Part shown: positions 1,180-62,568 of the stretch, in pieces
Layout: each line of letters opens with the position of its first letter
Position numbering within the stretch: position 1 is the stretch's first letter
DNA from: Nitrospira sp.
GTDB lineage: Bacteria; Nitrospirota; Nitrospiria; Nitrospirales; Nitrospiraceae
Length of the DNA: 64,000 nucleotides
Reading direction: 5' to 3'
Assembly (NCBI GenBank): GCA_005116965.1
Contig: SWDG01000025.1
Location: 137,214-201,213 of the forward strand
The notes under the pieces: model-generated
The model's input: only the letters and a program-made list of their open reading frames with translations
Told to the model about the DNA's origin: nothing
Databases searched by the model: none
Made by a program: the position numbers and the translations under genes

Positions 1180-1182
1180 CTG

Positions 1183-1494: not shown

Positions 1495-1612
1495 CTCGTG
1501 TTGTATCTGAACATACGTTTGCGGTGAGCCCTTCCACTTGCTCAAGACAGACCCATCGAAATCTCCTACTCGTCAGCTGACTTGCAAAAGACTTCTCTCG
1601 CAGAAACCACAA

Positions 1613-1641
1613 TTGACATCGACACACCATCTCAGTACAGT
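1613..1641 (+). promoter_or_regulatory. Sigma-70-type promoter of the DUF3597 gene
   Basis: A perfect TTGACA hexamer (1613-1618) is separated by 17 bp from TACAGT (1636-1641, 4 of 6 to consensus). A start site near 1648 would leave a leader of about 80 nt before the ATG at 1729. Confidence 0.55.
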
Positions 1642-1728
1642 CCAAAGACATCACCTTACATAGCGATCATTAGGATTCATCTCACATGGCGAATCATTCT
1701 TCGTCATGCCAATCAGGAAGGAGTAATC

Positions 1729-2148: not shown

Positions 2149-2151
2149 CGT

Positions 2152-3786
2152 TTACACGCTCTTGAATTTGGTGAGCTTGGCAAACAGGATGGCAGAAAAG
2201 GGAAGTGCCAGGCCGAGCAGGAGCTGCACAATGAAGAGCTCGCCCAGCTGGCTGTAGTCGGCTGGTGTTTGAATGGTGTCGGTGGCTTGGTCTCGGACTT
2301 CCCGCGTGACGACGAAGATCTCGTTGAGATACTTGGTCCCAAGCTGGCTGAAGGACAGCGCCAGATTGGTGAACGACGCCATCACAGCAAAGAAGGTGGC
2401 CTTCAGATTGGCGGGAGCCGAATTCGCGATCTAGGCCAGCATCGGGATCATAGAGATCTGAACCAGCGGCGATTCCAGTGCCGTGTCAACCAAAGCAATG
2501 AAGCGCGCATCGACAACTCCTCCGCTGATCCTCCCGGTCCATTCGTGTAATCCATAGTAGAGCCCCGCAATCGGAAGCGCGAGGATCGTCCCAACGATGG
2601 TTAAGAAACCAACCACGTACATGATGGATCGTTCAGCCATAAATCGCCGAAACACAAACATCCCCACCAAGGCAACAACGCCACCGATCAGGGAGAGGAC
2701 CGACAGGAACTGTTGATCGAACTTCAAGTGATCGATCATCCACCAGGTCGCGCCTGGGCCAGCCCCTGGAATCGCACGTAACGAAAAGACCACGGCTGCG
2801 GTGCCGACCAACGTGAGTCGTTTGTCGGGTTCCAGTTCCCGCATCAGCCTCGACATCAAAAACAGGACGATGGTCATCGAGCCGGTAAACACGATCTCTT
2901 CGCGGTACGGAAATCCTCCCAGCCCCACAGTGAGAGTGAAGAGAACAAAGGCCATGCTGCCGATGAGGATCCACCAATTCGGCTTCGTCGGTTCGCTTTG
3001 GGAGTCCCGCACGGTCACCATCTGTCGCGCCTGTTCCGAGGAGAATCCCTCCTGAACAAGTCGGTGCTTCTGTCGATGCTGTAGCCACCACGCCAACCCG
3101 ACTCCCAACACCGACACAGCAGGAATCGCCATGGCCATCACATAGATCTGTTTGTAGAGCCGAACGAGGTCGGCCTGCGGCAATCCCTCGGTTCCGCTGA
3201 AGACATAGACATTCACCAGCGCGACCACGATACCGCCTCCAACAATCGCAACACGCCCGAGCGTCTGCATGGTTGTATGCATGAGCTTGCGAGTCTGGTC
3301 ATCGAAAGACCGGCCCTGATCATCGACTCGCGGAACGGCTTCAACCGTCATCGCATCAGCAACGGCGTCTTGAATCACATATCCAACAGGAGCCAGCAGC
3401 GCGCTGAGGACATACCAGACTTCCGCCGGCCAGATGGCGGTCATCGCCTCGCGATCGCCAATCAACAGGGCCATGATGCCCAGGCTGATCATCAGCAGCC
3501 CGGCCCCCACCCCAACGAGCCAGCTCTTCCATCGCCAAAGAAGATCGACGGTATGCCCGATCGGCATCTTCAGAGCCCAGGGAATCCCGGCCCAAAATCC
3601 AAGCGCGGCAAGAAATGACGCGGAAAGGCCGAGATAGTCCTTGACGAAGAAGGTCCCGACGATTCCGGTAAGGCCAGAAATCCCGTACGCCACATAGACC
3701 ATGAGCGGCGGCAGATAGGACAACCGCATCTCGCGGCCAAGCGAAAGAATGTTCCGATCGATCCATTGTGCGACGGACGTGAGCAT
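2152..3786 (-). pseudogene. Folate/biopterin (BT1)-family MFS transporter, interrupted by in-frame amber codon
   Basis: The reading frame encodes a polytopic membrane protein of about 544 residues with roughly 12 hydrophobic segments. It resembles the folate-biopterin transporter (BT1/FBT) branch of the MFS. A TAG codon at 2431-2433 stops translation after about 451 residues. Beyond it the same frame continues as IANSAPANLKATFFAVMASF and then a TKYLNEIFVV motif, to a natural stop at 2152. Homologues usually have an aromatic or hydrophobic residue at the stop position, and TGG to TAG is the simplest lesion. The ATG at 3786 (or GTG at 3789) overlaps the stop of the ferredoxin-MBL gene. Without the tail, the last one or two helices are lost. 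It may be true decay, readthrough or a base-call error. Confidence 0.8.
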
Positions 3787-3788
3787 CA

Positions 3789-4670
3789 CTACGGCGCAAC
3801 CCTCCCCTTCGTACGACGTTCAACCAGCGCCTGCAGGTGCGCGTGCATCTCGGTCGAAGAGAGCCGTACTCGATCACCATGTCCAGCCAGCACCCATTCA
3901 AATCGATAGTCGAGGAGTTTACGGAGAGAGTCCAGCATGGTCCATTTTCTCCAGATCAAGCGCGTAGGGGCTTCCAGCGACTGTGCGTGTGAATCCCACC
4001 AAAGATGATCGCCGGTGAAGAGGAATCGCTCCCGATAGAGCAACGCCATACTCCCGGCTGTATGGCCTGGTACAGGAATGATGTGAAACTCAGACCCCAC
4101 ACAGACCGGCTCTTCCCCAGTAATGACCTGTTCTGCAGTGGGTGCGGCATCCACATCGGCCCGATGGATGATCCGCTTGGCCCCGAAATGTGCGGCATAC
4201 CTATCCGCATCGGCCACATCGTCTTTGTGAGTCAGAAAGATGTGGGTGATGCCTCCTCGCTGCTCAAAGACATCAACCAGATGTTTGAGATACCGCGGGG
4301 AATCGATCAACCAATTACCGTCAGGATGATCAATGAAAAAACTGTTGGCACCGAACGACTTCTCCGAATTAAAGCCGCAATAACTCACCCCGTCTTCAAG
4401 CGAAAGCGGGAAGCTTGCCATCGCCTGGTGCAGCCGCGACTTGTCACTATGCTCTGTGCCGATTGACCCCACCGGACACGCAAGCAATGCCTGATAAGCC
4501 TGATGCGTCTGCACATCATCCTGCGGCTGGTTGTGGACTGCGGAATAGTCCCCGATCTCCTCGAAACTCCGCGGTGCCAACTGACGACAGGTGTCACAAT
4601 TGATACACGTGGCATCCACGTAGAAGTTACCCTGAGCGTTGGAATCGAGTCGTTTGTTTTGGTCTGCCAT
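3789..4670 (-). CDS. Ferredoxin-MBL fold hydrolase fusion
   Basis: This 293-residue protein has two parts. Residues 20-70 form a ferredoxin-like module with CINCDTC and a later CPVG cysteine, enough for one [4Fe-4S] cluster. Residues about 95-290 are a metallo-beta-lactamase fold with VPGHTAGS (His203), TGDH (Asp221) and AGHGD (His264). The usual HxHxDH motif is replaced by THKDDVADAD (147-156), as in a recognised divergent subgroup. The ATG at 4670 was chosen because the 61 residues upstream of it in the track overlap the glycosylase gene and look non-homologous. It lies 4 bp after the glycosylase stop and overlaps the transporter start. The substrate is unknown. Confidence 0.85.
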   Translation of the reverse strand: MADQNKRLDSNAQGNFYVDATCINCDTCRQLAPRSFEEIGDYSAVHNQPQDDVQTHQAYQALLACPVGSIGTEHSDKSRLHQAMASFPLSLEDGVSYCGFNSEKSFGANSFFIDHPDGNWLIDSPRYLKHLVDVFEQRGGITHIFLTHKDDVADADRYAAHFGAKRIIHRADVDAAPTAEQVITGEEPVCVGSEFHIIPVPGHTAGSMALLYRERFLFTGDHLWWDSHAQSLEAPTRLIWRKWTMLDSLRKLLDYRFEWVLAGHGDRVRLSSTEMHAHLQALVERRTKGRVAP

Positions 4671-4674
4671 CAGA

Positions 4675-5307
4675 TTACTTTTGTCTCTGCTTTTCCCGAT
4701 CAGCGGCTCGCCAGAGATACCAGGATGCAATGGTCCGATACGGTTTCCATCGCTCTCCGTATCGTAACATAGTGCGTGCAGTCGGCAGGAGACGACGACC
4801 ATAGGCGATCCGGAATCCATTCCGCACACCAAAATCGTCGACCGGCAGGACATCCGGACGCCCCAGCTGAAAGATCAACATCATCTCGACCGTCCATCGC
4901 CCAATTCCTCGCACTTTGATCAGCTGCTCGATAATGGCCTCATCTTCCCATCCCTTCATCATGCGGTTTGTCGGTACCGTCCCATCAAGTGTTTTTGTGG
5001 CCAGATCACGAAGCGCCAGGACTTTGGGCTGAGAAAATCCAGCGTTTCTGATGGAACTCACCTTCATCGCCAAGAGATCCTCCGGGCGAGGGAACCGCCG
5101 TCCAGGAAAGAGCGCGATAAACCGTTTGAGGATACTCTCGGCCGCTTTGCCATGAAGCTGTTGATAGGCAATCGCTCGGGCAAGTGATTCGAATGGCGAG
5201 CGGCGGACGTTCGGCCTCAGGGAGCAAGGACCAATCTCCCCGATCAACCGACACATCACTGAATCAACCTTGGAGAGATGGCTGGTCGGTGAACTCACAG
5301 TACGCAT
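4675..5307 (-). CDS. DNA-3-methyladenine glycosylase II (AlkA-type HhH-GPD)
   Basis: This 210-residue HhH-GPD glycosylase cuts the N-glycosidic bond of alkylated purines to start base excision repair. The helix-hairpin-helix is VRGIGRWTVEMM (about 132-143). The following LPVDDFGVRNG holds the expected catalytic aspartate near residue 158. FESLARAIAYQQLHGKAA near residue 40 is the conserved first helix. It lacks the N-terminal TBP-like domain of E. coli AlkA, as short bacterial versions do. It probably shares a transcript with the downstream ferredoxin-MBL gene. Confidence 0.9.
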   Translation of the reverse strand: MRTVSSPTSHLSKVDSVMCRLIGEIGPCSLRPNVRRSPFESLARAIAYQQLHGKAAESILKRFIALFPGRRFPRPEDLLAMKVSSIRNAGFSQPKVLALRDLATKTLDGTVPTNRMMKGWEDEAIIEQLIKVRGIGRWTVEMMLIFQLGRPDVLPVDDFGVRNGFRIAYGRRLLPTARTMLRYGERWKPYRTIASWYLWRAADREKQRQK

Positions 5308-5331
5308 GGAAGCCGACTATCAGGCAGTCAA

Positions 5332-5721
5332 TCACCGTGTGGGCGCAATCGCGTCGGCCTCGATTTCAACCAGCATATCTGGATCGATCAGCCGTTTCAC
5401 TTCAACCATTGTCGTAGCTGGCCTGATCGTGCCAAACATCTCCCCATGTGCACGACCAACATCCTGCCATTGATCGATATTGGCCATATAAATCCTGGTC
5501 CGCACCACGTCAGCCAACCCGACACCAACTTGTTGTAGCGCAGCTTCAATGGTCTTCAAGGTCTGAACCGTCTGGGCATAGGGATCGCCTTTCCCAACTA
5601 ATCCAGAGGGAGTCATAGCCGTTGTTCCAGAGACGTGGATGTGGTCACCCACGCGTACCGCACGCGAATAACCGATCTTACCCTCCCAAGGCCCTCCAGC
5701 GGAAACGTTCTGGCGCGTCAT
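5332..5721 (-). CDS. RidA/YjgF family enamine/imine deaminase-like protein
   Basis: This 129-residue protein spans a full RidA fold, with GDHIHVSGTTA near residue 25 and the family signature region near VRTRIYMANIDQW (about 90-100). The arginine in VRTRIYM corresponds to the residue that contacts the carboxylate in RidA proteins. Canonical members hydrolyse reactive 2-aminoacrylate-type enamines. This sequence belongs to the broader YjgF subgroup, so the exact substrate is uncertain. The ATG follows TAGGGAGCAACT, a good ribosome binding site. The neighbours are an SDR upstream and a glycosylase downstream, on the same strand. Confidence 0.9.
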   Translation of the reverse strand: MTRQNVSAGGPWEGKIGYSRAVRVGDHIHVSGTTAMTPSGLVGKGDPYAQTVQTLKTIEAALQQVGVGLADVVRTRIYMANIDQWQDVGRAHGEMFGTIRPATTMVEVKRLIDPDMLVEIEADAIAPTR

Positions 5722-5754
5722 AGTTGCTCCCTAGTCATCTGCGTTTGATACCTG

Positions 5755-6486
5755 CTACATCACAATGCCCCCGCCGACTTGGATCGTCTGACCTGTGAGC
5801 CACCGAGCTTCTTCACTCACGATAAAGGCCACGACGTCAGCAATATCTTTTGGGACACCGAGTCGTTTCATCGGCGTCAGCTGAATCCCGATCTGCCGAT
5901 ACTCCTCCGTCATCATGCCCGTTTCGGTAAAACCGGGCGAGACAGTATTCACCGTGACCCCCTTCGAAGCCAATTCTTGCGCCAGCCCCTTGGTGTACTG
6001 CTCAAGCGCCGCCTTGCTCCCAAGATGGGCCGTGGCGCCGGGAAAGTGGAGATGGGTCCCACCGGTCGAGATATTCACAATCCGTCCCCCATCTTTGAGC
6101 ACCTTTGCTGCTTCCTGCATGGCAAAGTACGGCCCTTTGGCATTCAGGGCTATGACACTATCGAACTCCTCTTCCGTCGTTTCATCTAGTGGCTTCGGCA
6201 TAAACTTGCCCGCATTATTCACAAGAATATCCAGCCTATTGAATTGCTTCACCGTGTCAATCACAAGACGGCGGGCCTCCGCCACCTGGCTCATATTGGC
6301 CTGGACAGCGAGTGCCTTGCCCCCCTTGCCCTGAATCCCCACGACCACCTGTTGAGCCTTTTCTGAACTCTTCGAATAGTTAACCACGACGATCGCACCA
6401 TCCTCCGCCAGTCGTTCTGCAATTGCTCGACCGATTCCGTTCGAAGCCCCGGTCACAATCGCCACTTTCCCGCTCAACTCTTTCAT
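5755..6486 (-). CDS. Short-chain dehydrogenase/reductase with His in place of catalytic Tyr
   Basis: This 243-residue classical SDR has TGASNGIGR (NAD(P)-binding, 12-20), NNAG (90-93) and a conserved GQTIQVGGG C-terminal segment. Ser140 and Lys158 of the catalytic triad are present. The residue at the Tyr position of YxxxK is His154 (HLGSK); the codon is CAT, one transition from TAT. Family members with this flanking sequence normally read YLGSK. Reductase activity may therefore be weak or absent, unless the base is an error. A strong AGAGGAG ribosome site precedes the ATG. RidA lies downstream and the nitroreductase upstream. Confidence 0.88.
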   Translation of the reverse strand: MKELSGKVAIVTGASNGIGRAIAERLAEDGAIVVVNYSKSSEKAQQVVVGIQGKGGKALAVQANMSQVAEARRLVIDTVKQFNRLDILVNNAGKFMPKPLDETTEEEFDSVIALNAKGPYFAMQEAAKVLKDGGRIVNISTGGTHLHFPGATAHLGSKAALEQYTKGLAQELASKGVTVNTVSPGFTETGMMTEEYRQIGIQLTPMKRLGVPKDIADVVAFIVSEEARWLTGQTIQVGGGIVM

Positions 6487-6519
6487 TGGCTGAACTCCTC
6501 TTCTTAGACCAGAATCGGG

Positions 6520-7113
6520 CTATGGAATTCGGGTTCCCCACTGTCCCCAATATGTCCATTCTCCGATCGGCCGGCGACTCCGTGGTTGTAATTCCCGTTC
6601 CCGCAGCCGTTCGGGCAGACTATCCGGATCGCCTGGATAGCCAATCGCAATCATCGCAACCGGCTCGCAGCCGGACGGAATACCAAGATCAGCCCGCGCC
6701 TTCTCCATATCAAACCCCGCCATCTGACGAGCCATCAACCCATAGGCCGCCGCCTGCAAGATAAGGTTCTCCGTCGCCAATCCTGTATCGTGAAAGGCAT
6801 GCCGGTTCGGCTTGCCAGTCATCTCGAAGGACATACTGGCCACGGAAAGCACTAACACCGGGGCTCGCGCAGCCCATGTGCGGTTGCCTTCCACCAAACA
6901 CGCGATCAGTCGATTCCACTCCGTTTCATGATCTTTGGTCGCCACGATAAACCGCCACGGCTGCTCGTTGTTAGATGATGGCGCCCAGCGGGCCGCCTCG
7001 AACAGCGTCCGCAGTGTATCGGCCTCCACGAACCGTTCATCAAATGCGCGAGGGCTCCAACGGCTGGCGAGCAACTCATGAATGGGGAATTGGGTATGTC
7101 CCTGCTGATCCAC
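6520..7113 (-). CDS. Nitroreductase family protein
   Basis: This 197-residue FMN-dependent nitroreductase-like protein has the N-terminal SRWSPRAF motif (Arg/Ser phosphate contacts, about residues 17-24). It also has the PSSNNEQPWRFIV block (about 46-58) and a GLATENLILQAAAYGL helix that packs under the flavin. Such enzymes reduce nitroaromatics, quinones or enones with NAD(P)H. It starts with GTG, with AGGAT upstream, about 6 bp past the stop of the outer-membrane efflux gene. It may therefore be the fourth gene of the RND operon, which would fit a role against toxic aromatics. Confidence 0.9.
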   Translation of the reverse strand: MDQQGHTQFPIHELLASRWSPRAFDERFVEADTLRTLFEAARWAPSSNNEQPWRFIVATKDHETEWNRLIACLVEGNRTWAARAPVLVLSVASMSFEMTGKPNRHAFHDTGLATENLILQAAAYGLMARQMAGFDMEKARADLGIPSGCEPVAMIAIGYPGDPDSLPERLRERELQPRSRRPIGEWTYWGQWGTRIP

Positions 7114-7118
7114 AGGCT

Positions 7119-8528
7119 CTATCCTTTCTTCTCCTCCGCTGATGGCGTCTCAGGGGTCCACCCGCCGCCAAGCGCTTTGTACAACTGCACGGTCGAGGCC
7201 AACAGCAACCGGCGTGTGCTGGTCAGTGCCAACTCCGCCTCGAACAGACTTCTTCGGGCCACCAAGACATCGAGATAGTTCGCCAATCCCCCCTTGTATC
7301 GTAATTCCGCCAGCTTGAGTGCCGACTGTAACGCAGCAACCTGTTGTTGCTGCGCCTCACCTTGCACACGAGTCGTACGCACGGCGACCAGTGCGTCTTC
7401 CACCTCACGAAAGGCGGTCAAGATGGTTTGCTGGTACTGCGCCAGCGCTTGCTTGTGTTGTGCCTCGACGGCTTCTTGTTGAAAGCCCAACACTTGTGCG
7501 TTGAGCAACGGCGTCGCGATCGCAGCGCTGAACACGCCGAATGAAGAGGGATCGGTAAACAGCAAGGAGAGCGTGGGATGCGCCACACCCAGTAAACCAG
7601 TCAATGTGATTTTTGGGAAACGATCGGCTTTCGCGGCACCGATACGAGCCGTGGCGGCAGCCAACTGTTGCTCAGCCACCAAGATATCAGGCCGCCTCTG
7701 CAGTAACTCGGACGGCAAACCGGCAGGAACAGTGGGAGGCACAATCTGTTCCTCCAATGAACGGCCGCGCGCGATGCTAAAGGGCTTCCGTCCCAACAAG
7801 ACGCTCAAGTGATTCTCAGCTTGGATCATCTGCCGTTCAAGCTCGGCCGTGCGAGCCGCAGCATTGGCCCGCTCCGCCTCAAACTGATCCGCATCGAGTT
7901 TTGAGGTCATGCCTTGACGCAATCGAGCCTGCGCGATACGGACAGATTCTTCCCACGACTGCAAGGTCCGCTTCGCAACATCAAGCTGGAGATCAAACTG
8001 GAGTAGATTGAAATAGGCTTCCGCAACGGCACTGACCAATTGAACGGTCACGGCACGGCGGTTCTCTTCTTTCGATAATAGATCGGCACGCGCAGCCTCG
8101 TTGGTCCGTCTGATCCGTCCCCAGAGATCGACCTCCCACGCCAGGTTGCCCAACAGATAATAGTTGAAGGGGCTGGCAAACCCAGGGAAAAGGAAGTTTG
8201 CCTTTCGGCCGACCGGGAGGCTGGAGGACAACGAGATACCAGGAAGGTAGTCTGATCGCGCGACGAGCGCTCTGGCTCTAAATTCTTCGACAGTTGCAAC
8301 TGCTCGCTGAAGATCATGATTTTCCGCAAGCGCCATCCGAATGAGCTGTTGAAGCTGTTCATCGCGAAGGAGGTCCCACCAAGGCAAGTTCGCCAAGGAC
8401 GGCAGTTCAGAAGAACCGTCGGCCATTCGGAAGCGATCCTCTCCATTAGCTGGGGGCCGTTTGTAATCCGGCCCCATCGAACAGGACAGCAGGAACATCG
8501 AGAACAAGATAGAAAAGACAGCACGCAC
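7119..8528 (-). CDS. RND efflux outer-membrane lipoprotein (NodT/OprM family)
   Basis: This 469-residue outer-membrane channel of the TolC/OprM type has a lipoprotein signal with lipobox LLSC near residue 16, followed by the family motif GPDYKRP. It contains two OEP repeats, including NLAWEVDLWGRIRR and RRPDILVAEQQL, which are hallmarks of NodT proteins. It would form the trimeric exit duct for the RND pump encoded just upstream. The start is GTG, with AGGAG ten bases before it, 7 bp after the pump stop. The gene order adaptor-pump-channel is standard for HAE1 operons. Confidence 0.95.
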   Translation of the reverse strand: MRAVFSILFSMFLLSCSMGPDYKRPPANGEDRFRMADGSSELPSLANLPWWDLLRDEQLQQLIRMALAENHDLQRAVATVEEFRARALVARSDYLPGISLSSSLPVGRKANFLFPGFASPFNYYLLGNLAWEVDLWGRIRRTNEAARADLLSKEENRRAVTVQLVSAVAEAYFNLLQFDLQLDVAKRTLQSWEESVRIAQARLRQGMTSKLDADQFEAERANAAARTAELERQMIQAENHLSVLLGRKPFSIARGRSLEEQIVPPTVPAGLPSELLQRRPDILVAEQQLAAATARIGAAKADRFPKITLTGLLGVAHPTLSLLFTDPSSFGVFSAAIATPLLNAQVLGFQQEAVEAQHKQALAQYQQTILTAFREVEDALVAVRTTRVQGEAQQQQVAALQSALKLAELRYKGGLANYLDVLVARRSLFEAELALTSTRRLLLASTVQLYKALGGGWTPETPSAEEKKG

Positions 8529-8535
8529 GTGATGA

Positions 8536-11500
8536 TTACTCCTGCGACAACTGCGGTGGCGTCATCTCGTCTGATGCCGCAACCGGTTGCGTCCTACGAC
8601 GGGTGAACTTTCGAAGCACGACATAAAACAACGGAACGAAAAATATTGCAAGAAACGTTGCCGCCAACATCCCGCCCATGACTCCAGTCCCGATCGACTG
8701 ACGGCTTGCCGCACCAGCGCCCCTGGCCACCACCAATGGCACCATGCCAAAAATAAAGGCCATCGACGTCATAATAATCGGTCGAAACCGCAGTCGCGCG
8801 GCTTCGATCGCGGCTTCGATCAAGGGACGCCCTGCTTCGTATCGGGTATTGGCGAACTCGACGATCAGAATGGCATTCTTGGCCGTCAAGCCGATCAACG
8901 TCACCAATCCGATCTGGAAATAGATATCATTTTCGAAGCCGCGTAGCCACACGGCGGTGAGCGCGCCGAAAATTCCAAAGGGAACGGCCAGAATCACGGC
9001 GAAGGGAACGACCCAACTCTCGAACTGTGCCGCCAACACGAGGAACACCATCAACAGACCAACGATGAAGACCAGGTTGGACTGGCCGCCCATCCGCCGT
9101 TCCTGAAACGAAAGGCCGCTCCAATCAATCCCATACCCTTGTGGAACCAACACGTCTTTCGCCACACGCTCCAGCGCTTCGAGCGCTTGTCCAGAGCTGA
9201 AACCCGGCGCAGCCGCGCCCATCAGCAATGCCGTATTATACCCATTGAAGTGCTTCACAGGATCCGGCCCGCTCTGATACTCCGCCGTCACCACCGTATC
9301 GAGCGGAATCATATTGGTCCCCTGCGCATTCTGAGCCCGCAAATAGATTTTTGACAAGTCTTGTGGGGTCGACCGAAACTCGGGTTCCGCCTCGGTCTGC
9401 ACGTGATAGACGCGACCAAACTTCACAAAGTCGTTAATATAGAAATTCCCGAAATACGCTTGCAATGTATCAAAGATTTCCGAGATGGGCACACCTAAGG
9501 CTTTCGCCCGTTCCCGATTCACATGGGCATAGACCCGCGGCGAGGACACACGGAAATTCGTCCCCACCCGCCCAATCGCTGGCTCCTGTTGCACCCGTTC
9601 CACAAACTGCTGTGCAACCTCAGCAAACCGCTTAAAATCTTCGCCGGTGGGATCTTGCAACTGCACGGAGAATCCCCCAGCCGCACCGACCCCCTCAATC
9701 GCCGGCGCATTGAATGCCAACAAGAGCGCTTCAGGAATCTTCTCAAACTCAGCGTACGCCGCACCGACCATCGCCTTCACATGGTTCTGCGGCTCCGGCC
9801 GCTCATCCCACGGTATCAGCGGCACAAACATCGTGGCAGAGTTCGGCCCTCTCGTACCAAAGACGAAGTTTTGGCCGGACAGCGCGTCCGTCGAATTGAC
9901 CGCCGGATTCGCTTGAAACACCCGCTCGATTTTCTCAAGCACCGCATCCGTCCGCTGCTTCGAAGCCCCATCCGGCAGCTGTGCGACCACGATGAAGTAC
10001 CCTTGATCCTCTTCAGGCACAAAACTCTTCGGTAACGACTGGAACAGCCAGAATGAGAAGGCAAGCAGCACACCAAAGACCGCCATCACCCGTATAGGTC
10101 TGGCCAAGATCGCACCAACCGTATTGGTATAGCCACGCTGCGTATGTCGAAACAGCCGGTCAAACAGCACCCAGAATACGGCCCGCTCTCCGTGCTGCGA
10201 TTTCAAAACGACCGCACAGAGCGCTGGGCTGAGGGTCAGCGCCACGAATCCTGACACCGTCACGGAGATGGCAATCGTGGCGGCAAACTGCTTATAGAGC
10301 GCCCCGGTGATCCCGCCGACAAAACCGACAGGCGCGAAGACCGCGACCAGGACCAACACGATCGCAATGATGGGCGCCGTCACTTCACTCATCGCCCGTT
10401 TGGCTGCCTCTTTGGCCGACACACGATCTTCGCGCATATGGCGCTCGACATTTTCCACCACCACGATCGCGTCGTCGACCACGATCCCGATCGCGAGCAC
10501 CATTCCAAACAACGTAATGGTGTTGATCGAGAACCCCAGGGCGTAGAGCCCCATAAATGTGCCAATGAGCGAAACCGGCACGGCCACCATAGGAATGACG
10601 GTCGCACGCCAACTCTCAAGGAACAGATAGACGACGAGTACCACCAAAATCATCGCTTCTGCCAACGTCTTCACCACTTCCCTGATCGAGACTTCGATGA
10701 AGTGGGTGGTGTCGTAGGGAACGTCATACGACACGCCTGGTGGGAAATTCTTAGACAGTTCGTCCATCTTGGCTCGTGCGCCACGGACCATTTCAAGGGC
10801 GTTCGCACCGGGAGACAAAAACGTGAGGATGAATGTGGTGGGCTTACTGTTCCAGCGAGCCTCAAGACCATAGGACTGTGCACCCACTTCGACCCGAGCC
10901 ACATCCTTCAAGCGGACCAAGGAACCATCCGGAAGGGCACGCACGATCAACTCCTCAAACTCCTTGACCTCCGTCAGCCGCCCCTTCGCGATAATCGGGA
11001 TCGTGAGTTCCGTGCCCTTCAGTGCTGGTTCCCGCCCGATCGTCCCGGCCGGATAATCACGATTCTGCTCTCGAATAATCGCCGTGATATCGCTCGGTAC
11101 CAGTCCCAGCTTTGCCATATGCAACGGATTGAGAATGATCCGCATGCTGTAACTCGATTGTCCGAACACCCAGGCATCTCCGACACCCTTCACGCGTTTG
11201 AGATCATCGACCACCCGTCGTGCTGCGTAATTCGAGAGGAACACGGAGTCGTGTTGAGGATCAGTCGACTTCAGCACAAACACCGCCAGTAGGTTGCGGG
11301 TTGCCTTTTTGACAGACACGCCTTGCCGAATGACTTCCGCCGGCAACTGGGGTTCCGCGAGCTTTTCACGATTTTGGGTTTGGACCTGGGCGATATCCGG
11401 ATTGGTCCCAACCTCAAACGTCAGCGTGATGGACACATGGCCATCGTTGCTGCTGGTGGATTCAAAGTATAAGAGGTTATCAATGCCGGGGAGCATCACT

Positions 11501-11700
11501 TCGATCGGCCTCGCCACGGCTTCGGCTGCGACTTCCGCACTCGCGCCAGGATAATCCGCTTCAATCTGCACGACCGGTGGGTTCATCTCCGGAAACTGCG
11601 CCACCGGAAGGAACTGCAACGCAAGCAGCCCCATCACCACAATGATGATCGACACCACTGACGCAAGAATCGGACGGTCTATGAAGACGTGCAATTTCAT
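8536..11700 (-). CDS. HAE1-family RND multidrug efflux permease
   Basis: This inner-membrane RND pump of about 1054 residues is full length for the AcrB/MexB family. It starts with FIDRPILASVVSIIIVVMG as TM1. TM4 carries GIVVDDAIVVVENVER, with the paired Asp residues needed for proton relay, and TM10 carries GLTAKNAILIVEFA. Both large periplasmic porter loops are present. The family exports drugs, detergents and hydrophobic toxins using the proton gradient. The first ATG (11700) is preferred over the TTG one codon upstream. It is flanked by its adaptor and channel, so this is a complete tripartite system. No local regulator is visible. Confidence 0.96.
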   Translation of the reverse strand: MKLHVFIDRPILASVVSIIIVVMGLLALQFLPVAQFPEMNPPVVQIEADYPGASAEVAAEAVARPIEVMLPGIDNLLYFESTSSNDGHVSITLTFEVGTNPDIAQVQTQNREKLAEPQLPAEVIRQGVSVKKATRNLLAVFVLKSTDPQHDSVFLSNYAARRVVDDLKRVKGVGDAWVFGQSSYSMRIILNPLHMAKLGLVPSDITAIIREQNRDYPAGTIGREPALKGTELTIPIIAKGRLTEVKEFEELIVRALPDGSLVRLKDVARVEVGAQSYGLEARWNSKPTTFILTFLSPGANALEMVRGARAKMDELSKNFPPGVSYDVPYDTTHFIEVSIREVVKTLAEAMILVVLVVYLFLESWRATVIPMVAVPVSLIGTFMGLYALGFSINTITLFGMVLAIGIVVDDAIVVVENVERHMREDRVSAKEAAKRAMSEVTAPIIAIVLVLVAVFAPVGFVGGITGALYKQFAATIAISVTVSGFVALTLSPALCAVVLKSQHGERAVFWVLFDRLFRHTQRGYTNTVGAILARPIRVMAVFGVLLAFSFWLFQSLPKSFVPEEDQGYFIVVAQLPDGASKQRTDAVLEKIERVFQANPAVNSTDALSGQNFVFGTRGPNSATMFVPLIPWDERPEPQNHVKAMVGAAYAEFEKIPEALLLAFNAPAIEGVGAAGGFSVQLQDPTGEDFKRFAEVAQQFVERVQQEPAIGRVGTNFRVSSPRVYAHVNRERAKALGVPISEIFDTLQAYFGNFYINDFVKFGRVYHVQTEAEPEFRSTPQDLSKIYLRAQNAQGTNMIPLDTVVTAEYQSGPDPVKHFNGYNTALLMGAAAPGFSSGQALEALERVAKDVLVPQGYGIDWSGLSFQERRMGGQSNLVFIVGLLMVFLVLAAQFESWVVPFAVILAVPFGIFGALTAVWLRGFENDIYFQIGLVTLIGLTAKNAILIVEFANTRYEAGRPLIEAAIEAARLRFRPIIMTSMAFIFGMVPLVVARGAGAASRQSIGTGVMGGMLAATFLAIFFVPLFYVVLRKFTRRRTQPVAASDEMTPPQLSQE

Positions 11701-11713
11701 CAACGATGTGTCT

Positions 11714-12901
11714 TCAGGATTGGGGAATGGTGGGAGTTGATTCCGTCACTGAAGGCTTTGTCTGACTCCACGGAACCGCCTTCACCGGCGCGCCAGGACC
11801 GATTTTCATCATCCCATTCACGACCACACGATCACCCTGCTTGAGGCCCGTATCAATCAGCCACTGCTCCCCCCTCCAGTCGGAGGCGACCACGCCACGA
11901 ATCTGGACCTTCTCGTCCTGATCAATGACAAAGACGAACGGCCCTTGGGGCCCCTGCAACACGGCTCGCTGCGGGACAAGAATCGCGTCGGTCTTCGTAT
12001 CACCGGTAAATCGAACCTTGACGAACTGCCCCGGCAAGAGAGTACGCGTGGGATTGGGAAACGTGATGCGTGTTTGCCGTGAGCTAGTTTCCGCTCGCAA
12101 ACCAGGCTCCAACAAATCGAGCACCCCTTCCTGTGGATAAACGGTCCCATCCATGAGCGTAAGCCGACCTCGCAACTGATAGACTCCCGGATGGGTGATT
12201 CGCTTTGCCTCGATGTCCCGTCGTCGCTTCAGGATGAACGTCTCCGGCACGTTGACCACCACATACATGGGATCAACCCGATGGATCGTGGTCAAGAGAT
12301 CGGTTTGAGCCGAGACCAACCGCCCTTCATAATAGCGACTGCGCTCAATAAGCCCGGTGATGGGGGCCGTAATGAGGGTATTATCCAGATCGAACTGCGC
12401 CTTCATCAGATCGGCCTGAGCCCCTGCTAGTGCAGCATGTGCCGACAGCTCTTCTGCAATCGCATCATCCACGTCCTTCTGGCTGACGGCCTGTTCAGCA
12501 AGCAAGGGTTTCACCCGTGCGAGATTCTGCCCGGCTTGGACGACGCGGGCCTCCGCTTGTGCAATCTTGGCCTTCGCACTCGCTGCCACCGCCTTAAACG
12601 GAACAGGGTCGATCTGATACAGCCGATCACCTTTTTTCACATCGCGGCCTTCTGGATAGAGGACCGCCTTCAAAAGTCCCGTCACCTGCGAACGGATCTC
12701 CACCGGACGAGAGGCTTCGGCTTGGCCAATAAATTCAGGTTCATCAGGAACGGTCTGCGTCTGAACCGTGACGACTTCCACTTGGGGTATCGGCGGCGCT
12801 GGCATGGAACCGGCCTCTTGCTTGCACCCAGTCGAGAGCGCGATCGCCACCAGGGCAAGACACGTCGAGACACCGTGTACCAACTGACGCTGTTTCAGCA
12901 T
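11714..12901 (-). CDS. RND periplasmic adaptor lipoprotein (MFP)
   Basis: This protein of about 395 residues is of the AcrA/MexA type. A signal peptide ends in lipobox LSTGC near residue 26, so it is anchored in the inner membrane. It contains the lipoyl half-motifs, a coiled-coil hairpin (about residues 95-165: AKIAQAEARVVQAGQNLARV and following), a TLITAPITGLIERS segment and a beta-barrel. It bridges the pump and the outer-membrane channel. I chose the ATG at 12901 because AAGGTGG precedes it; a GTG three codons upstream is also in frame. It is the first gene of the RND operon. Confidence 0.94.
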   Translation of the reverse strand: MLKQRQLVHGVSTCLALVAIALSTGCKQEAGSMPAPPIPQVEVVTVQTQTVPDEPEFIGQAEASRPVEIRSQVTGLLKAVLYPEGRDVKKGDRLYQIDPVPFKAVAASAKAKIAQAEARVVQAGQNLARVKPLLAEQAVSQKDVDDAIAEELSAHAALAGAQADLMKAQFDLDNTLITAPITGLIERSRYYEGRLVSAQTDLLTTIHRVDPMYVVVNVPETFILKRRRDIEAKRITHPGVYQLRGRLTLMDGTVYPQEGVLDLLEPGLRAETSSRQTRITFPNPTRTLLPGQFVKVRFTGDTKTDAILVPQRAVLQGPQGPFVFVIDQDEKVQIRGVVASDWRGEQWLIDTGLKQGDRVVVNGMMKIGPGAPVKAVPWSQTKPSVTESTPTIPQS

Positions 12902-56189: not shown

Positions 56190-59100
56190 CTATCTAGACT
56201 TGGATGAAGAGGCTGAGGATTTCACCGGAGCGGCAGACGTGTGGCCAACAGGAATCTCTACCACCACATCGGACTGGGGATCGGCATCTTGATCTTTCCC
56301 GTCGTGTCCAACACTGTAGAGGACGCCTTTTTTCATGTTCAGTAGCATTGGCAGTCCCGTGTAGGGGTCATACAGGCTTTGCCCTGCTCTCGCAATCCGG
56401 GTGGCGAGATCACCGTCGGCAGGACCACGCCTGAGCCAAGCTTGTACACTGGCAAGCCGAAGGTGGGCATCTGTGTCAACCACGAATCCGTTGTACAGAT
56501 CCCATGGAGCAAGCGGTTCAAGCCCTACAATGTTCTCGATTGGGTTGGTGAGATGATCCATCACGCCAGACGCTGGGAAACGGATATAGTCTTTCCACTT
56601 GGGCAACGAGCCATACCGCCCTTCGCCGGCAGCTTTGTACGACGCATCATAATATTCTGCATAGTCATTGAGACGGCGTTGCATCGGCAAGGAAAGCGCC
56701 GATGCCACCATGGTGTACACCGGCAGTTCTTCGGCTCTCGCTGTTTTCAACTGAGTCTCGTATGTCTTCGCGGCAGCGACCAGTTCGCTTTGCATGGGCC
56801 AACGCATCGAGAGTTCGCCTTGATCAAGCGGGCGAAGAACTTTGGTGACGCGCCCCAGGTATTTTCCGTCAAAGTTTGAGCCTGCGAGCAACCCCGAGGC
56901 GACGGCAATGTCATCATTGATCGCCTGGAGTGCCAGCATTTTCACCGTCAGAGTCTTCGCCTGACTCAGAACGATGCGCCACGCTTCCATATCCGTCTCA
57001 AGTCGGTCGATGCCGAGATCGGTACCCTGCAGGAATCCATCCGCCACATGGAGCTGGTGAACAAAGACCATCGCAGTACAAGGCGGACTCACCATTTGGC
57101 CATATCCCCAATCTTCAAAGGGAAGTTTTTGCCACTGGCTATACCGATTGAGCGCCGACTCATGCTGATTGCCCCATTCCTTGATGGTCTGCTGATGGGA
57201 CTTGAACGCCCCGACAGGATCTGAACTGCGAACCCACCCTCGCATGATATTGGCTGAGGTATTCACTCCCTCGACCGTCCCCGAGCCTGAGCTCCCAAAA
57301 CACGCGAGCGCCAACTTGCCATCGTGGGTCTCAGGCTTCCGATCGTATCCAGCCTGTATCGGATCGTGACCGACCGACACGTCAAACCCGAGGAGAAAGA
57401 AGTAGCCGTTCTTCTTGAAATCCGACAGTGTCTGTTGAGGAGTGGTCGTAAGACTTTGGAATGTTGGAGAGGGTGATTCTTCCATGATGAACCAGGTCAG
57501 TCCGATGGCACCAATCCCTAGCGCAATGAGGATCCCCGAGAGCATCACCAGTCCGATACACGTCACCACAAGAGCACGCGTAGTCGAAAAACATGAACTG
57601 ACAAAACCGGCAATCGCCGAGCGGGCTCGAATCAGTGCCGAACTGGATTTTCGTTTTGGCTTGGGCTCTGCGACATCTTCTCGCGTCTCTGTCGCCCTGA
57701 CATGTTGAGACGACTCAAAGAGCACATCAACAGCAGCAGCCACGGACATAGACCGGCCGACGTCCTGCCGTTCTGCGCTCTCCGGCGATACCTGCGCACT
57801 TGGATCGGCGTGAGGTTGTTCGATGAATTGGATCGATTCTCCTGCTTTGATCCATTCTTCCGGTTCAGCCACTGGTTCCTGAACCGGTTCAGGAATAGAA
57901 GCTTGCGCCTCGACAAACGCCATTGCCTGCGGTTGCGGTTCATGAACCTGCACCTCGGCTGTCTCTCTTAGGCGCTGGGAAGTTTCTCCCATTTCTGGCT
58001 GCGATTCTAAAATTCTCTCTTGTGTTCGCAGAGGGGAGGGAGGTGGAATCTCATCAGTTTCCTGGCTTTGTGTCTCGCTGCTAGGTTGTGCTAGAGCGAC
58101 GGGAGACTCGGGCGTAGATTCCTGAACGAGGCTTTGATCGGCTGCGATCGCATGTTCCTCTTCCGTGTTCAAGGGGACGCCATCATCCTTTGATGGAGCG
58201 TCTGAGGGGGATGGCACAGCGTCTGCGACTGGTTCACCCACAAAAACCGGTGCCGCTACTGCTGCCGCAGGAGCTTCCGGCGGCGGCTCATCGATCGTCG
58301 GAGCGCTCATCATCCGAAACTGGGGTTCAGACTCTGCTGGAGCGGAGACCTCTTCGGTCTCGAGTGTGATGGGTTCCAACTCAGTGGCAGAAATCTCCAG
58401 ATCGGGCGATGCCGGAGTCAGTGGAGTTCGCACAATCGAGAATGAATCCGTTTCTTCAACGGACGTATCCGGTGAAGACGGAGGTTGAACCTGGCTTTCA
58501 CTCACTGTTGGAGGCAGTTCTGGTTCAGGTGGATGAGGCAATGGATCTACCGCTAGCTTCATACTCTCTGTCATTGGAGGATCGACCTGCGCGAGCGGAA
58601 TCGAAATGACCGACTCCTGAACGTGATCCCAGGGCATCGGCGCAATTGGAGATCCAGCAGAGGTGTGGTCTCCAAACAACGTTGATTCTTTGCGCTCTGG
58701 TATTTCGACCGCGTGGTCTTCTAACGCCTGTTCCTGGTGAGATCCCACTGCCAAAGCTGGAGTCGGTGCTTCCTCGACATTCGTCTCCGTGAGTTCCGAC
58801 GGGGAACCATGTGTAGAACGATCACTTCCCAACTTCCATGCACTATTGAATACTGATTCCCAGGAGAAGCCTGGTTGCTTCCATGGTTCTGAAACCTCAT
58901 TGTCTGAAACCGACACTGGGCTCGATGGGTTAGGTCTGCCTGGAGGCTGTTCTGTCACGACCTCCTTCGGTTCAGTCTCGACAGGTTGGAGTAGAGAGGG
59001 TTGGCTCTCCTCCACCTCTATTAGTGGAACACTCGACTGCTCTACTCCCAAGGATGCAGGCGCTGATATCTCTTCAACCTGGGATGACGCCATGACACTG

Positions 59101-60527
59101 GTATCTTCGGAGGACTGGATTGAGCTCACCAGCGCTTCTGGAGCAGTGGTGAGTTCCGTCAGTACAACAACCGTGAATAGGTCACTTGCATCATAGGGCG
59201 CACGTGGTTCACCCTCGGCCACCCATCCGTCTTGTTCCTGACTCTCGATAGGACCACCTGGTGACACCATCGAATCGGGCGCCAGTTGCGTCTCAGTACT
59301 CTCAACCGCGAGTACTGATCTCTCTTCAACCTGGCATAACGACATGTCGCTGATATCTTCTGCAGGCTGGATCGAACTCATTAGCGCTTCCGGAGCAGTG
59401 GTCGAGTCCTCGGGTGCGACACCCGTCAATGGGGCGCTTGGCTCAAAGGAGGCCTCGGGTTCGGCCTCGACCAACCCTCGGTCTTGTTCCTGAGCCGCAG
59501 CAGAGCCATCTCCCGACACCGATGAGGGCACGAGCGAGTGGGAACCTCCAAGCTCACCCTGTCCGGGAAGATCATTTATCTGCGATCCAGAGGAAACAGG
59601 CCCACCTTCATCAGTGCGAGGTTCGTCCGATGCAGCACTTCCCATTTCACTCGTGCTGCTCATGTTCTGCGTTTGTTCTTGTAACGGAGGATCAGAGGGC
59701 AGCAATGCTTCATCGTGCTGGTGCGCTTGAGATGTCGAAAGGTCCGTGACCGGCGGTGAGGTAAGCGATCCCGGTGAATCAGATACAGTGCCTGCGTTAG
59801 GAGAATCCGACGAGGTCACCAGAGAATCCTGGATCTCCCATGGCATCACCCCATCCATCGGTTCAGGACCTGCCGTGACACCCTGACTTGTCTCAGGCAT
59901 GTCGAGAGATGGGGCGTCAATCGATGGTCCAGGATTACTAGATGGACGGGCCAGCAGCTCCCCGGTTTGCGCGTCAAAGAAGGACGCCAACCGAAATGCC
60001 ACTGGGCTCGCGGGCGCAAGTTCCCTTATTTTGTCGTAGAGCTGGGAGGCATGATGTGGATTATCCGGGTCGCGATCTTCGATCAAGATGTCGATCGCCT
60101 TGGCGAACTCAGCCACGGCCTCGTGTGTGTCTCCTTTTTCCTGATAGAGCTCCCCAAGCTTCTCCAAGAACGGCACACATCGCGGGCCAGCCGCCAGGTA
60201 TTCATGAAGCAACGATTCCGCGAGCCAGTAGTCTTGCCGCTGAAGCGCTTCGCTGATGAGTGAGTCAAAGGCTTGTCTCGCCGGGATCAAGCTCCCGAGA
60301 CGAAGGTGGAGGGTGGCGAACAGCCGTCGCGCCTCCATATTCTGAGGGTCAAGCGCGAGTAATTCCTTCAGGGCGGTAGAAGAACGTCCATATTTCCCGG
60401 CATTCATTTGGGTGATGGCTTCCTCAAGAAGAGCGGTCTTCCTGCTGTAGCCAACCACACCACGCTTGTGCGCGCGGGAGGTCTGGGTTTTATCCGATTT
60501 TAAAGGGGGTTTCTTGTTCACGCGCAC
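56190..60527 (-). CDS. Giant TPR/low-complexity/membrane protein
   Basis: This 1445-residue protein starts at GTG behind AAGG. Residues about 30-180 are TPR-like repeats (QMNAGKYGRSSTALKELLAL and following). A roughly 750-residue Ser/Pro/Glu/Thr-rich linker follows, acidic and without predicted fold, with a duplicated block at about 345-415 and 429-500. A single TM helix lies near 983-1010 (LVMLSGILIALGIGAIGLTWFIM). A compact 400-residue C-terminal domain ends YDPYTGLPMLLNMKKGVLYSV and DGKDQDADPQSD, a motif seen at pseudopilin-like C-termini. It is divergent from a secretin, so a part in secretion or envelope assembly is possible. Family not recognised. Confidence 0.8.
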   Translation of the reverse strand: MRVNKKPPLKSDKTQTSRAHKRGVVGYSRKTALLEEAITQMNAGKYGRSSTALKELLALDPQNMEARRLFATLHLRLGSLIPARQAFDSLISEALQRQDYWLAESLLHEYLAAGPRCVPFLEKLGELYQEKGDTHEAVAEFAKAIDILIEDRDPDNPHHASQLYDKIRELAPASPVAFRLASFFDAQTGELLARPSSNPGPSIDAPSLDMPETSQGVTAGPEPMDGVMPWEIQDSLVTSSDSPNAGTVSDSPGSLTSPPVTDLSTSQAHQHDEALLPSDPPLQEQTQNMSSTSEMGSAASDEPRTDEGGPVSSGSQINDLPGQGELGGSHSLVPSSVSGDGSAAAQEQDRGLVEAEPEASFEPSAPLTGVAPEDSTTAPEALMSSIQPAEDISDMSLCQVEERSVLAVESTETQLAPDSMVSPGGPIESQEQDGWVAEGEPRAPYDASDLFTVVVLTELTTAPEALVSSIQSSEDTSVMASSQVEEISAPASLGVEQSSVPLIEVEESQPSLLQPVETEPKEVVTEQPPGRPNPSSPVSVSDNEVSEPWKQPGFSWESVFNSAWKLGSDRSTHGSPSELTETNVEEAPTPALAVGSHQEQALEDHAVEIPERKESTLFGDHTSAGSPIAPMPWDHVQESVISIPLAQVDPPMTESMKLAVDPLPHPPEPELPPTVSESQVQPPSSPDTSVEETDSFSIVRTPLTPASPDLEISATELEPITLETEEVSAPAESEPQFRMMSAPTIDEPPPEAPAAAVAAPVFVGEPVADAVPSPSDAPSKDDGVPLNTEEEHAIAADQSLVQESTPESPVALAQPSSETQSQETDEIPPPSPLRTQERILESQPEMGETSQRLRETAEVQVHEPQPQAMAFVEAQASIPEPVQEPVAEPEEWIKAGESIQFIEQPHADPSAQVSPESAERQDVGRSMSVAAAVDVLFESSQHVRATETREDVAEPKPKRKSSSALIRARSAIAGFVSSCFSTTRALVVTCIGLVMLSGILIALGIGAIGLTWFIMEESPSPTFQSLTTTPQQTLSDFKKNGYFFLLGFDVSVGHDPIQAGYDRKPETHDGKLALACFGSSGSGTVEGVNTSANIMRGWVRSSDPVGAFKSHQQTIKEWGNQHESALNRYSQWQKLPFEDWGYGQMVSPPCTAMVFVHQLHVADGFLQGTDLGIDRLETDMEAWRIVLSQAKTLTVKMLALQAINDDIAVASGLLAGSNFDGKYLGRVTKVLRPLDQGELSMRWPMQSELVAAAKTYETQLKTARAEELPVYTMVASALSLPMQRRLNDYAEYYDASYKAAGEGRYGSLPKWKDYIRFPASGVMDHLTNPIENIVGLEPLAPWDLYNGFVVDTDAHLRLASVQAWLRRGPADGDLATRIARAGQSLYDPYTGLPMLLNMKKGVLYSVGHDGKDQDADPQSDVVVEIPVGHTSAAPVKSSASSSKSR

Positions 60528-60987
60528 GATACAACCTTAGCAGATCCGAACGCTGTGTGAGCCTTCGGCAGCAGCCCACTCTGGGCTTGTCGACGCCCGT
60601 GAAGTCGGGCGCGACATGGGAGTTAAACCTTTAAGAGGTTTACAATCTCAATGCCTTACCCTCTCAAGGGTTTATTAATGCCAAGCCATTGAAAAGTAAT
60701 GCATTAGCTTGCAATTCAATCCACTCAGGCATGTGAGACCACGGGTCGTCTGGCCCACACACGTAGCCTCTCTGTATCGGTGTATTGGCGAACACACTTA
60801 ACGATGGGCTCAGGATTGTGCCTCCAAGCCTGGAAGGGATGCCCGGCAGCGAGCGCCCCTCCTCTGGATATGCACGGACGGCACGCTTTTGAGAAACATC
60901 AGCTTGGTTGTGTCTTTCGACACGCCTATGGTACGGTCAGTCCTACGTACACCGCATGAGCTGATGCCACGGAATTAATAGTCCATC
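60528..60987. other. Divergent intergenic region between TPR protein and secretin
   Basis: These 460 bp show no gene. TAAACC/GGTTTA around 60627-60645 is a short inverted repeat. On the minus strand TTGAGA with TGTAAA 17 bp away could be a weak promoter for the giant gene. GCCCG/CGGGC near 60595 is a five-bp hairpin. No clear promoter was found for the secretin. Confidence 0.4.
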
Positions 60988-62568
60988 GTGCAAGCCCGTC
61001 CAATACCTCATTGCCCATCGAACACGACCAGGGAATTTAGCACCTGCCTGAGCTTGCTGCTTCTGCTCTTCTTGGCCTTCCCTCCCCCTCTGTTTTCGCA
61101 AGGCGGAGGAGGCCAACCACTAAAAGTTGCGTTGGATTTCAACGAAGTCGAGATCCCCGTCTTTGTCCGGTTTATCAGTGAGATCACCGGAAAAAACTTT
61201 GTGCTGGATGAGACGATTAAAAAGCAGGGTGGAAAAGTATCCGTGTTTTCTCCGACTAAGGTGTCACCGGACCAGGCTTTTACCATGTTCGTCGCGGCGT
61301 TAGAAGCAGCCCGTATCGCCGTGGTCCAGAAGGGAGGAAACCTCTATCAGGTGGTCCCCATGGGAGACCTTCCGCCAGAGCGGGGTGTGTTTGTCTATAA
61401 GCTGAGACATGCCAACGCGACTGATCTTGCCGCTGTTCTTACCAATTTGGTGGCACGCTCACAAACCGTGGCGCAGATCACACCTGGAACCCGTCCACCC
61501 GTCAGACCGCTGACGGAATTCGAGGCTCCGGTCCAAGTGTTTGCCGATAAGGCGACCAACTCCATCGTGATCAGTGCAACCAAACTCGCCTGGAGTCATC
61601 TCCAAGCCGTCATTCGTGACCTCGATATCCGGCGCAAGCAGGTCTTTGTAGAAGCGGTGATCCTGGAGGTCCAAGTGGATCGCCTTCGCCAAATCGGTAC
61701 AGATCCGACTCAGGTGCTCGGTGCAGGAAAGACTGGTTTTATACAGGGAATCGGCGGGTTCAATAGAGCACCGGAAGATCTGGCAACCTTCGCCCAAGCG
61801 ATCACCGGCGTGGCGGCCGGAGGAGCGACAGGCGGCGCAGCGCCGCTCCTGAATACGCTGAACGTGCGTGCATTCATGAACCTCCTGATGAACCTGACTG
61901 ATACGAATGTCCTCTCCACACCACAGGTGCTGGCCGCCGATAACCAGAAGGCGAAGATTGTCGTCGGTGAAAATCGCCCGTTCCCAACCGGCCAGGCCCA
62001 AGGCATCACGGGGGGAACGCTCGTCACCATTGAGCGAAAAGACGTCGGCGTGACGTTAGAGTTGACCCCGCAGGTCCTCGACGGTGATTTGATTCGGCTG
62101 GAGATTAAGCAAGAGATTACGGCGATTGCTGAAAATGTAGCTCAAACCATTGGCGCTGGTTCAGCAAGTATCCCGGTTGGACCCACCACAACGAAGCGAT
62201 CCATGGAAACGACGACAGTCGCGCAGGATCAACAAACCCTCGTCATCGGAGGATTGGTGCGTGACAATGTCACGCTGAGTGAAAAGAAAATTCCCGTGTT
62301 GGGAGACATTCCGTGGATTGGATGGCTATTCAAATCACAGAGTCGTCAGATTGAGAAGCTGAATCTCCTCGTCTTTCTCACGCCGCACTTAGTCCGAGAC
62401 GACGCAGATGTGGTTGAATTGAACGCCAGAAAAGCTAGAGATATCAATATCTTGCAACGAGACAACCGGATTGAAGAACCGACGAAACTCAAGCAAGATG
62501 TGCTGGAACGGCTCGAACTCCCCTCAACAGTCCCTTCTCCTTTGACGGATAAGCCTAATAAGCCCTAA
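60988..62568 (+). CDS. Short GspD-type secretin
   Basis: This 526-residue protein has a signal peptide (CLSLLLLLFLAFPPPLFS). An N0-like domain (LDFNEVEIPVFVRFISEITGKNFVLDE) is followed by one N1-type KH domain (GVFVYKLRHANATDLAAVLTNL, then VFADKATNSIVISA). The secretin barrel has VFVEAVILEV, LSTPQVLAADNQKAKIVVGE and VPVLGDIPWIGWLF-like PVLGDIPWIGWLFK with LVFLTPHLV. One or two N-domains are missing compared with standard GspD (about 650). It should form the outer-membrane ring of a secretion or pilus-like system. No other system genes lie in the window. The GTG start has no clear ribosome site. Confidence 0.92.
   Translation: MQARPIPHCPSNTTREFSTCLSLLLLLFLAFPPPLFSQGGGGQPLKVALDFNEVEIPVFVRFISEITGKNFVLDETIKKQGGKVSVFSPTKVSPDQAFTMFVAALEAARIAVVQKGGNLYQVVPMGDLPPERGVFVYKLRHANATDLAAVLTNLVARSQTVAQITPGTRPPVRPLTEFEAPVQVFADKATNSIVISATKLAWSHLQAVIRDLDIRRKQVFVEAVILEVQVDRLRQIGTDPTQVLGAGKTGFIQGIGGFNRAPEDLATFAQAITGVAAGGATGGAAPLLNTLNVRAFMNLLMNLTDTNVLSTPQVLAADNQKAKIVVGENRPFPTGQAQGITGGTLVTIERKDVGVTLELTPQVLDGDLIRLEIKQEITAIAENVAQTIGAGSASIPVGPTTTKRSMETTTVAQDQQTLVIGGLVRDNVTLSEKKIPVLGDIPWIGWLFKSQSRQIEKLNLLVFLTPHLVRDDADVVELNARKARDINILQRDNRIEEPTKLKQDVLERLELPSTVPSPLTDKPNKP

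Follow-up and report, generated by a model that had tools for sequence, protein, structure and literature searches.

The locus and its two genes

This study concerns a divergent gene pair in a Nitrospira sp. genome (3.7 Mb, 99% complete), which lies in a window of 64,000 nucleotides, namely positions 137,214-201,213 of contig SWDG01000025.1 (GCA_005116965.1); the window is the whole stretch of DNA that was analysed, and the coordinates below are counted from its first letter. The open reading frame (ORF) at 60988-62568 on the plus strand encodes a secretin of 526 residues, which is identified below as the GspD of a type II secretion system (T2SS). The ORF at 56190-60527 on the minus strand starts with GTG and encodes a protein of 1445 residues with tetratricopeptide repeats (TPRs) and a single transmembrane (TM) helix, which is called here the giant protein. 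Both are real conserved genes, with chance ORFs excluded. Relatives keep the pair, so a linkage confined to this one genome is ruled out; the spacing between the two genes ranges there from 360 to 3372 bp (median 621), and their arrangement is divergent in all of the 49 loci holding both, as is now established for a pair that the first-pass annotation had noted in the window. The features of the locus are as follows.

60988-62568, plus strand: short GspD secretin, 526 residues, with a signal peptide (Pfam and profile matches; operon orthologue in an outgroup)
61132-61353, plus strand: GspD N0 domain, residues 49-122 (Pfam PF21305, 7.4e-16)
61387-61641, plus strand: single Secretin_N (KH-like) domain, residues 134-218, at the N3 position (Pfam; N1 and N2 missing)
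61888-62397, plus strand: Secretin (outer-membrane channel) domain, residues 301-470 (Pfam PF00263, 2.6e-46)
60528-60987, no strand: divergent intergenic region between the giant protein and secretin genes, 460 bp
56190-60527, minus strand: giant TPR/acidic-linker/single-TM protein, 1445 residues, GTG start (orthologues across the genus)
59973-60437, minus strand: cytoplasmic TPR head, residues ~31-185, the best conserved part (Pfam TPR_16; 71-94% identical)
57648-59972, minus strand: disordered acidic linker, residues 186-960, variable in length and sequence, cytoplasmic by topology
59829-59846, minus strand: linker motif MPWEIQ, residues 228-233, conserved
58827-58889, minus strand: linker motif EPWKQPGFSWESVFNSAWKLG, residues 547-567, conserved
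58614-58637, minus strand: linker motif MPWDHVQE, residues 631-638, present 1-5 times in most orthologues
57483-57575, minus strand: single TM helix, residues ~985-1015, with a positive N-flank, N-in/C-out
56193-57446, minus strand: periplasmic alpha-helical C-terminal domain, residues 1028-1445, with the Cys pair 1076/1150 and a C-terminal DPYTG...YSVGHDGKD hairpin

The short secretin and the gsp operon

The secretin was best matched by the GspD profile TIGR02517 (349.4 bits; curated cut-off 351.35 bits), followed by PilQ (149.6 bits) and, at lower scores, the other profiles, and its closest solved structures are T2SS secretins. It has fewer N-domains than GspD, as the first-pass annotation had claimed; Pfam finds one Secretin_N domain in it as compared with three in the E. 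coli GspD used as a control. In BLASTP against E. coli GspD, furthermore, residues 16-135 align with residues 6-113 (N0), and residues 129-472 align with residues 263-597 at 31% identity across N3 and the channel, leaving out E. coli residues ~114-262. Because the alignment jumps from N0 to residue 263 and onward, N1 and N2 are absent, and the secretin departs from the canonical GspD arrangement with three KH-like domains (N1-N3). The missing N1 and N2 are read as marking a variant of GspD rather than as exclusion from GspD, since the operon-encoded GspD of the outgroup described below is equally short. In known systems, GspC is bound by N0 and pore assembly depends on N3 (PMC8134430); the two N-domains retained here, N0 and N3, are thus those with known roles. 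Judging from this domain composition, the periplasmic vestibule of Nitrospira GspD should be shorter.

The same genome has a gsp operon on another contig (C4, minus strand) with the gene order gspC-E-F-G-H-I-J-N-L-M-K, in which gspD is not present and gspC and gspE are 194 bp apart. Loss of gspD in an assembly gap is ruled out, because gspC and gspE are contiguous in this genome and also, with ~200-300 bp between them, in the relatives that were checked. The GspE of this operon scores 703 bits with TIGR02533 (cut-off 630 bits); GspC, E, G, I, J, K, L, and M have profile matches of varying strength, and GspN is matched weakly, while GspF came out of a search for its family, and the assignment of GspH relies on its place in the operon and a pilin-like N-terminus. 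The type II cluster elsewhere in the genome is devoid of its own GspD, and the link of the locus to type II secretion is supported. The finding that the first-pass annotation had named as contrary evidence, a complete cluster with a full-length GspD together with unconserved linkage of the pair, was thus not made. In a sister family used as the outgroup (f4), a short gspD orthologue lies between gspC and gspE, the operon being otherwise identical (gspC-gspD-gspE-F-G-H-I-J-N-L-M); this GspD is 45-50% identical to the secretin in the window, has 525-528 residues where complete (527 in one case), and consists in its N-terminal part of N0 and one Secretin_N domain. We also tallied by hand the co-occurrence of the short secretin (>=45% identity) with an orthologue of gspC or gspE in 69 genomes: both were present in 41, only the secretin in two, only the T2SS in none, and neither in 26. 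The two genomes with only the secretin are metagenome-assembled genomes (MAGs) with completeness of 80% and 67%. Given the operon position in the outgroup and this near-perfect co-occurrence with gspC/gspE, it is close to certain that the short secretin is the GspD of an ordinary T2SS, namely that encoded on C4.

As the gene is unlinked from the gsp operon, and N0 followed by a single KH-like domain is also a PilQ-like arrangement, the secretin might instead serve a type IV pilus or a pilus-like system. This is, however, very improbable, given that the best profile is GspD and not PilQ, that the orthologue sits inside the gsp operon of the outgroup, and that the secretin follows gspC/gspE across genomes. 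Also, the genome has three secretins in total, and the other two lie elsewhere: one, a TPR-secretin, belongs to a pilus-like cluster (contig C21) that has pseudopilin, GspF, and GspE genes of its own, and the other is a PilQ-sized protein on contig C6. The pilus-like cluster (C21:92000-110000, 4055-12102 therein) encodes the TPR-secretin of 780 residues, two pseudopilins, and GspF- and GspE-type proteins, and may be MSHA-like or of another type.

In the GspD reading, then, the protein resembles known members of this family (TIGR02517; E. coli GspD; P. aeruginosa XcpQ, 5wln) in having N0, a channel-adjacent KH-like domain, and the secretin domain, as well as in the gsp-operon orthologue of the sister family and the co-occurrence with gspC/gspE. 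It differs from them in the lack of N1/N2, in its length (526 versus 650 residues), and in the position of its gene, which lies apart from the gsp operon as one of a pair with a gene unrelated to it. Such relocation of gspD is uncommon; 96.5% of detected T2SSs are encoded at a single locus, and Legionella is the known scattered exception (PMC4793230). We conclude that an ancestor of Nitrospira already had gspD displaced from the gsp operon to its present place, divergent from a gene to which it is unrelated, and that the reduced protein keeps N0, which docks GspC in known systems, one KH-like domain at the N3 position, and the channel, with N1 and N2 having been lost. Among the papers listed in our literature searches, there was no prior description of a short GspD, Nitrospira type II secretion, or Nitrospira secretins. 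A stripped-down GspD (N0, N3, and channel) in an otherwise complete type II system amounts to a natural experiment on the function of N1 and N2, and its gene illustrates that an operon-encoded core component can relocate and remain relocated across a genus, which could lead operon-based annotation to call such a T2SS secretin-less.

Additional gsp genes were noticed in the relatives. In one Nitrospira relative (G025:C37:32000-50000; 487-10838), a further gene for a short GspD (65% identical) occurs in a cluster with gspE, gspF, and a gspC-like gene. This cluster is interleaved with a multicopper oxidase and a MauG-like di-haem cytochrome c peroxidase and possibly encodes a T2SS dedicated to an exported oxidase. 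Second gspC paralogues (36-44% identical) are found in many Nitrospira genomes (e.g., G007:C30, G025:C90, G029:C9, and G032:C49), which suggests a second T2SS-like system.

Architecture and topology of the giant protein

The giant protein has the composition proposed in the first-pass annotation, i.e., a TPR head and a disordered acidic linker followed by one TM helix and an exported C-terminal domain, as confirmed by Pfam, amino acid composition, and the topology of 63 out of 63 orthologues. The TPRs are at residues 34-147 (Pfam TPR_16, 7.6e-9), beyond which Pfam gave no convincing match in the protein. The linker is of low complexity (residues ~190-960) with 17.6% D/E, 4% K/R, and 45% P/E/S/T and carries a net charge of about -110. 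Orthologues throughout the genus have about 1240-1745 residues; among 21 relatives, identity is 71-94% in the head, 57-93% in the C-terminal domain, and 20-80% in the linker, the length of which varies from 607 to 1069 residues and the identity of which is only 20-33% in the more distant ones.

Throughout the 63 orthologues, the N-terminal flank of the TM helix is the more positive one, indicating the N-in/C-out orientation, and neither a signal-peptide-like segment nor a second TM helix was detected. Because the linker precedes the TM helix and is on its positive side in every orthologue, it is placed in the cytoplasm and not, as had been suggested, across the periplasm. The domain of ~420 residues following the TM helix has exactly two Cys residues in all 63 orthologues. 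Cys1076 and Cys1150 probably form a periplasmic disulfide; this would fit a Cys pair that is invariant in the giant proteins and of which both residues are absent in the short paralogues described below. The predicted structure of this domain (predicted local distance difference test (pLDDT) score 83; predicted template modelling score 0.85) is helical with a small hairpin at the end, and no fold in the PDB was matched at E <= 0.001 in the search with this model. Searches with the profile of the domain against solved structures, with the domain against plasmids, and with defence-system profiles also gave no match. The pseudopilin-like motif previously noted at the C-terminus was a resemblance only; neither N-methylation (N_methyl) nor T2SSG profiles matched, hhalign against the GspG of the same genome gave E = 0.46, and the model is alpha-helical, so that the pseudopilin reading was rejected.

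While the linker is poorly conserved as a whole, it contains tryptophan-centred motifs, namely (P/A)MPW[DE]xV[QE]E, which most orthologues have 1-5 times, and FSW[EK]S[VI]F...AWK. The motifs number 1.87 per linker on average as compared with 0.035 in shuffled sequences. A DNA pattern for the MPWDHVQE-type motif matched once per genome in eight Nitrospira genomes, always at the giant locus; it matched nowhere in four outgroup genomes, and the reversed control gave zero.

Distribution and proposed role of the giant protein

The giant protein represents a Nitrospiraceae-only family. Of the roughly 110 Nitrospiraceae genomes sampled, 102 have its C-terminal domain; in the rest of the phylum, this domain is virtually absent, with one weak partial match. 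Several genera have only a form of 470-540 residues without the head and linker, and this short protein with a TM helix and the domain may be the older form. Short paralogues of the same size (L090, L091, and L093) share the periplasmic domain of the giant protein (33% identical) and have one N-terminal TM helix, but they are without the TPR head, the linker, and both invariant Cys residues. In three Nitrospira genomes, these paralogues adjoin a BtuFCD-like ABC transporter and a TonB receptor.

Ten N. defluvii-type species, 'Ca. N. defluvii' included, form one fully supported clade in the tree; they keep the giant protein, and the secretin is not beside it at their loci. Genome-wide searches in five of these ten, again including 'Ca. 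N. defluvii', found no orthologue of gspC, short gspD, or gspE, and the best GspE matches were paralogues with 40-43% identity (49% in one partial case); in five other Nitrospira genomes searched in the same way, gspC, gspD, and gspE were all present, with GspE at 80-84%. Conversely, the sister family with gspC-short gspD-gspE has a T2SS, and the giant protein was not found there. The two genes are therefore separable in both directions, and the pair is not an obligate export machine. The presence of a T2SS in most Nitrospira examined and its lack in the N. defluvii-type genomes searched would represent a physiological difference among these nitrifiers.

The first-pass annotation had proposed that the giant protein and the short secretin might work together as a single unusual export machine, in which the disordered linker could reach across the periplasm. 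The conserved divergent neighbourhood would suit such a machine, as would the single TM helix and exported domain of the giant protein, but the linker is N-terminal of the TM helix on its positive-inside side in a protein with no signal peptide, each gene exists without the other, and the remaining components are encoded by a gsp operon of the ordinary kind. We consider this model extremely improbable; the giant protein and the secretin are probably not one apparatus. What stands from that annotation is the short secretin, the divergent pair, and the link to type II secretion, and what falls is the single machine with its periplasm-spanning linker.

We regard it as likely that the locus holds a minimal, relocated GspD beside an independent inner-membrane scaffold that is loosely analogous to FimV/HubP. 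The polar hub proteins FimV/HubP have a single TM helix, a periplasmic domain, and, on the cytoplasmic side, TPR and a long acidic region that varies in length and is poorly conserved (PMC12918733), and the giant protein likewise combines an acidic disordered cytoplasmic region, TPR, one TM helix, and a periplasmic domain. The order is, however, reversed in the giant protein, with the TPR N-terminal and the periplasmic domain C-terminal; neither a LysM nor a FimV domain was found in it with Pfam and NCBIfam; and its periplasmic domain has a different, alpha-helical fold. The likeness would be one of function and does not assign the giant protein to that family. By this analogy, the giant protein would be a bitopic inner-membrane protein with a cytoplasmic TPR head and acidic disordered tail, one TM helix, and a periplasmic helical domain, and most likely acts as a membrane-anchored scaffold or hub. 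Its tail may display the tryptophan-centred linear motifs, its TPR head may bind clients, and its periplasmic domain may connect what is assembled there with a partner in the periplasm or cell wall. A broader version of this proposal, which we put forward only tentatively, is that the giant protein founds a novel type of scaffold in the envelope, built like FimV/HubP in mirror image, with one helix joining the cytoplasmic TPR head and motif-bearing acidic tail to an undescribed periplasmic fold, in which a TPR-linker part was fused in Nitrospiraceae to the older TM-plus-periplasmic-domain protein and which organises several envelope machines, the T2SS among them where present.

Alternatively, the giant protein might be an accessory factor of the T2SS like GspA/GspB, with its periplasmic domain binding GspD or GspC and its cytoplasmic part positioning the machine, in which case the N. 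defluvii clade would have kept it only for a second role. GspA/GspB scaffold secretins from the inner membrane (PMC9239104), and this precedent, the relocated gspD that landed and stayed beside the giant gene, and the invariably divergent pairing favour the idea. Like the giant protein, GspA/GspB (OutB) are bitopic in the inner membrane and are encoded near T2SS genes in some bacteria, but the giant protein persists where the T2SS is absent, as in the N. defluvii clade without gspC/gspD/gspE, and no giant protein accompanies the T2SS of the outgroup, the GspD of which is of the same short form. No HR, AAA+, or peptidoglycan-binding domain was found in the giant protein with Pfam/NCBIfam, and it is the N. 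defluvii clade, without the secretin, that has the highest number of tryptophan motifs (4-5 copies). Also, the conserved linkage with the secretin is not specific evidence, because AIM24, an unrelated neighbour, is close to the giant gene in 68 of 80 loci and is thus conserved equally well. An accessory role is accordingly unlikely, and even in T2SS-bearing species it is not needed to explain the data.

Several points nonetheless weigh against an independent scaffold beside a minimal GspD. The scaffold role is a reading of the motifs and the domain architecture, whereas computation directly yielded the topology and motifs, the occurrence of each gene without the other, the co-occurrence with gspC/gspE, and the identity, domain loss, and relocation of GspD. 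Retention of the divergent pair wherever both genes are found together (49/49) leaves room for a T2SS-accessory role. The secretin is ~2 bits below the curated GspD cut-off, as would be expected if domains are missing, and the AlphaFold model of the secretin monomer built with 12 close orthologues had a mean pLDDT of 39 and was not used, so that the domain loss rests on the sequence alignment. Finally, the giant protein without a T2SS is documented in one clade, with the T2SS searched for in 5/10 of its species, and the absence there is probably a single loss event.

Irrespective of its partners, the giant protein stands out as a membrane protein conserved in Nitrospiraceae only, with defined linear motifs and a periplasmic fold that is predicted with high confidence and has no match in the PDB. 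In several genomes (L209, L203, and G021 locus L089), its gene is followed by those for a sigma-70-like factor and a small protein, possibly an anti-sigma factor, which are absent in the window. The Nitrospira giant locus is also carried, with its synteny, by two contigs, JABWBV010000215.1 (labelled Anaerolineales) and CAADGK010000052.1 (labelled Nitrosospira), both of which are probably mis-binned or mislabelled MAG contigs.

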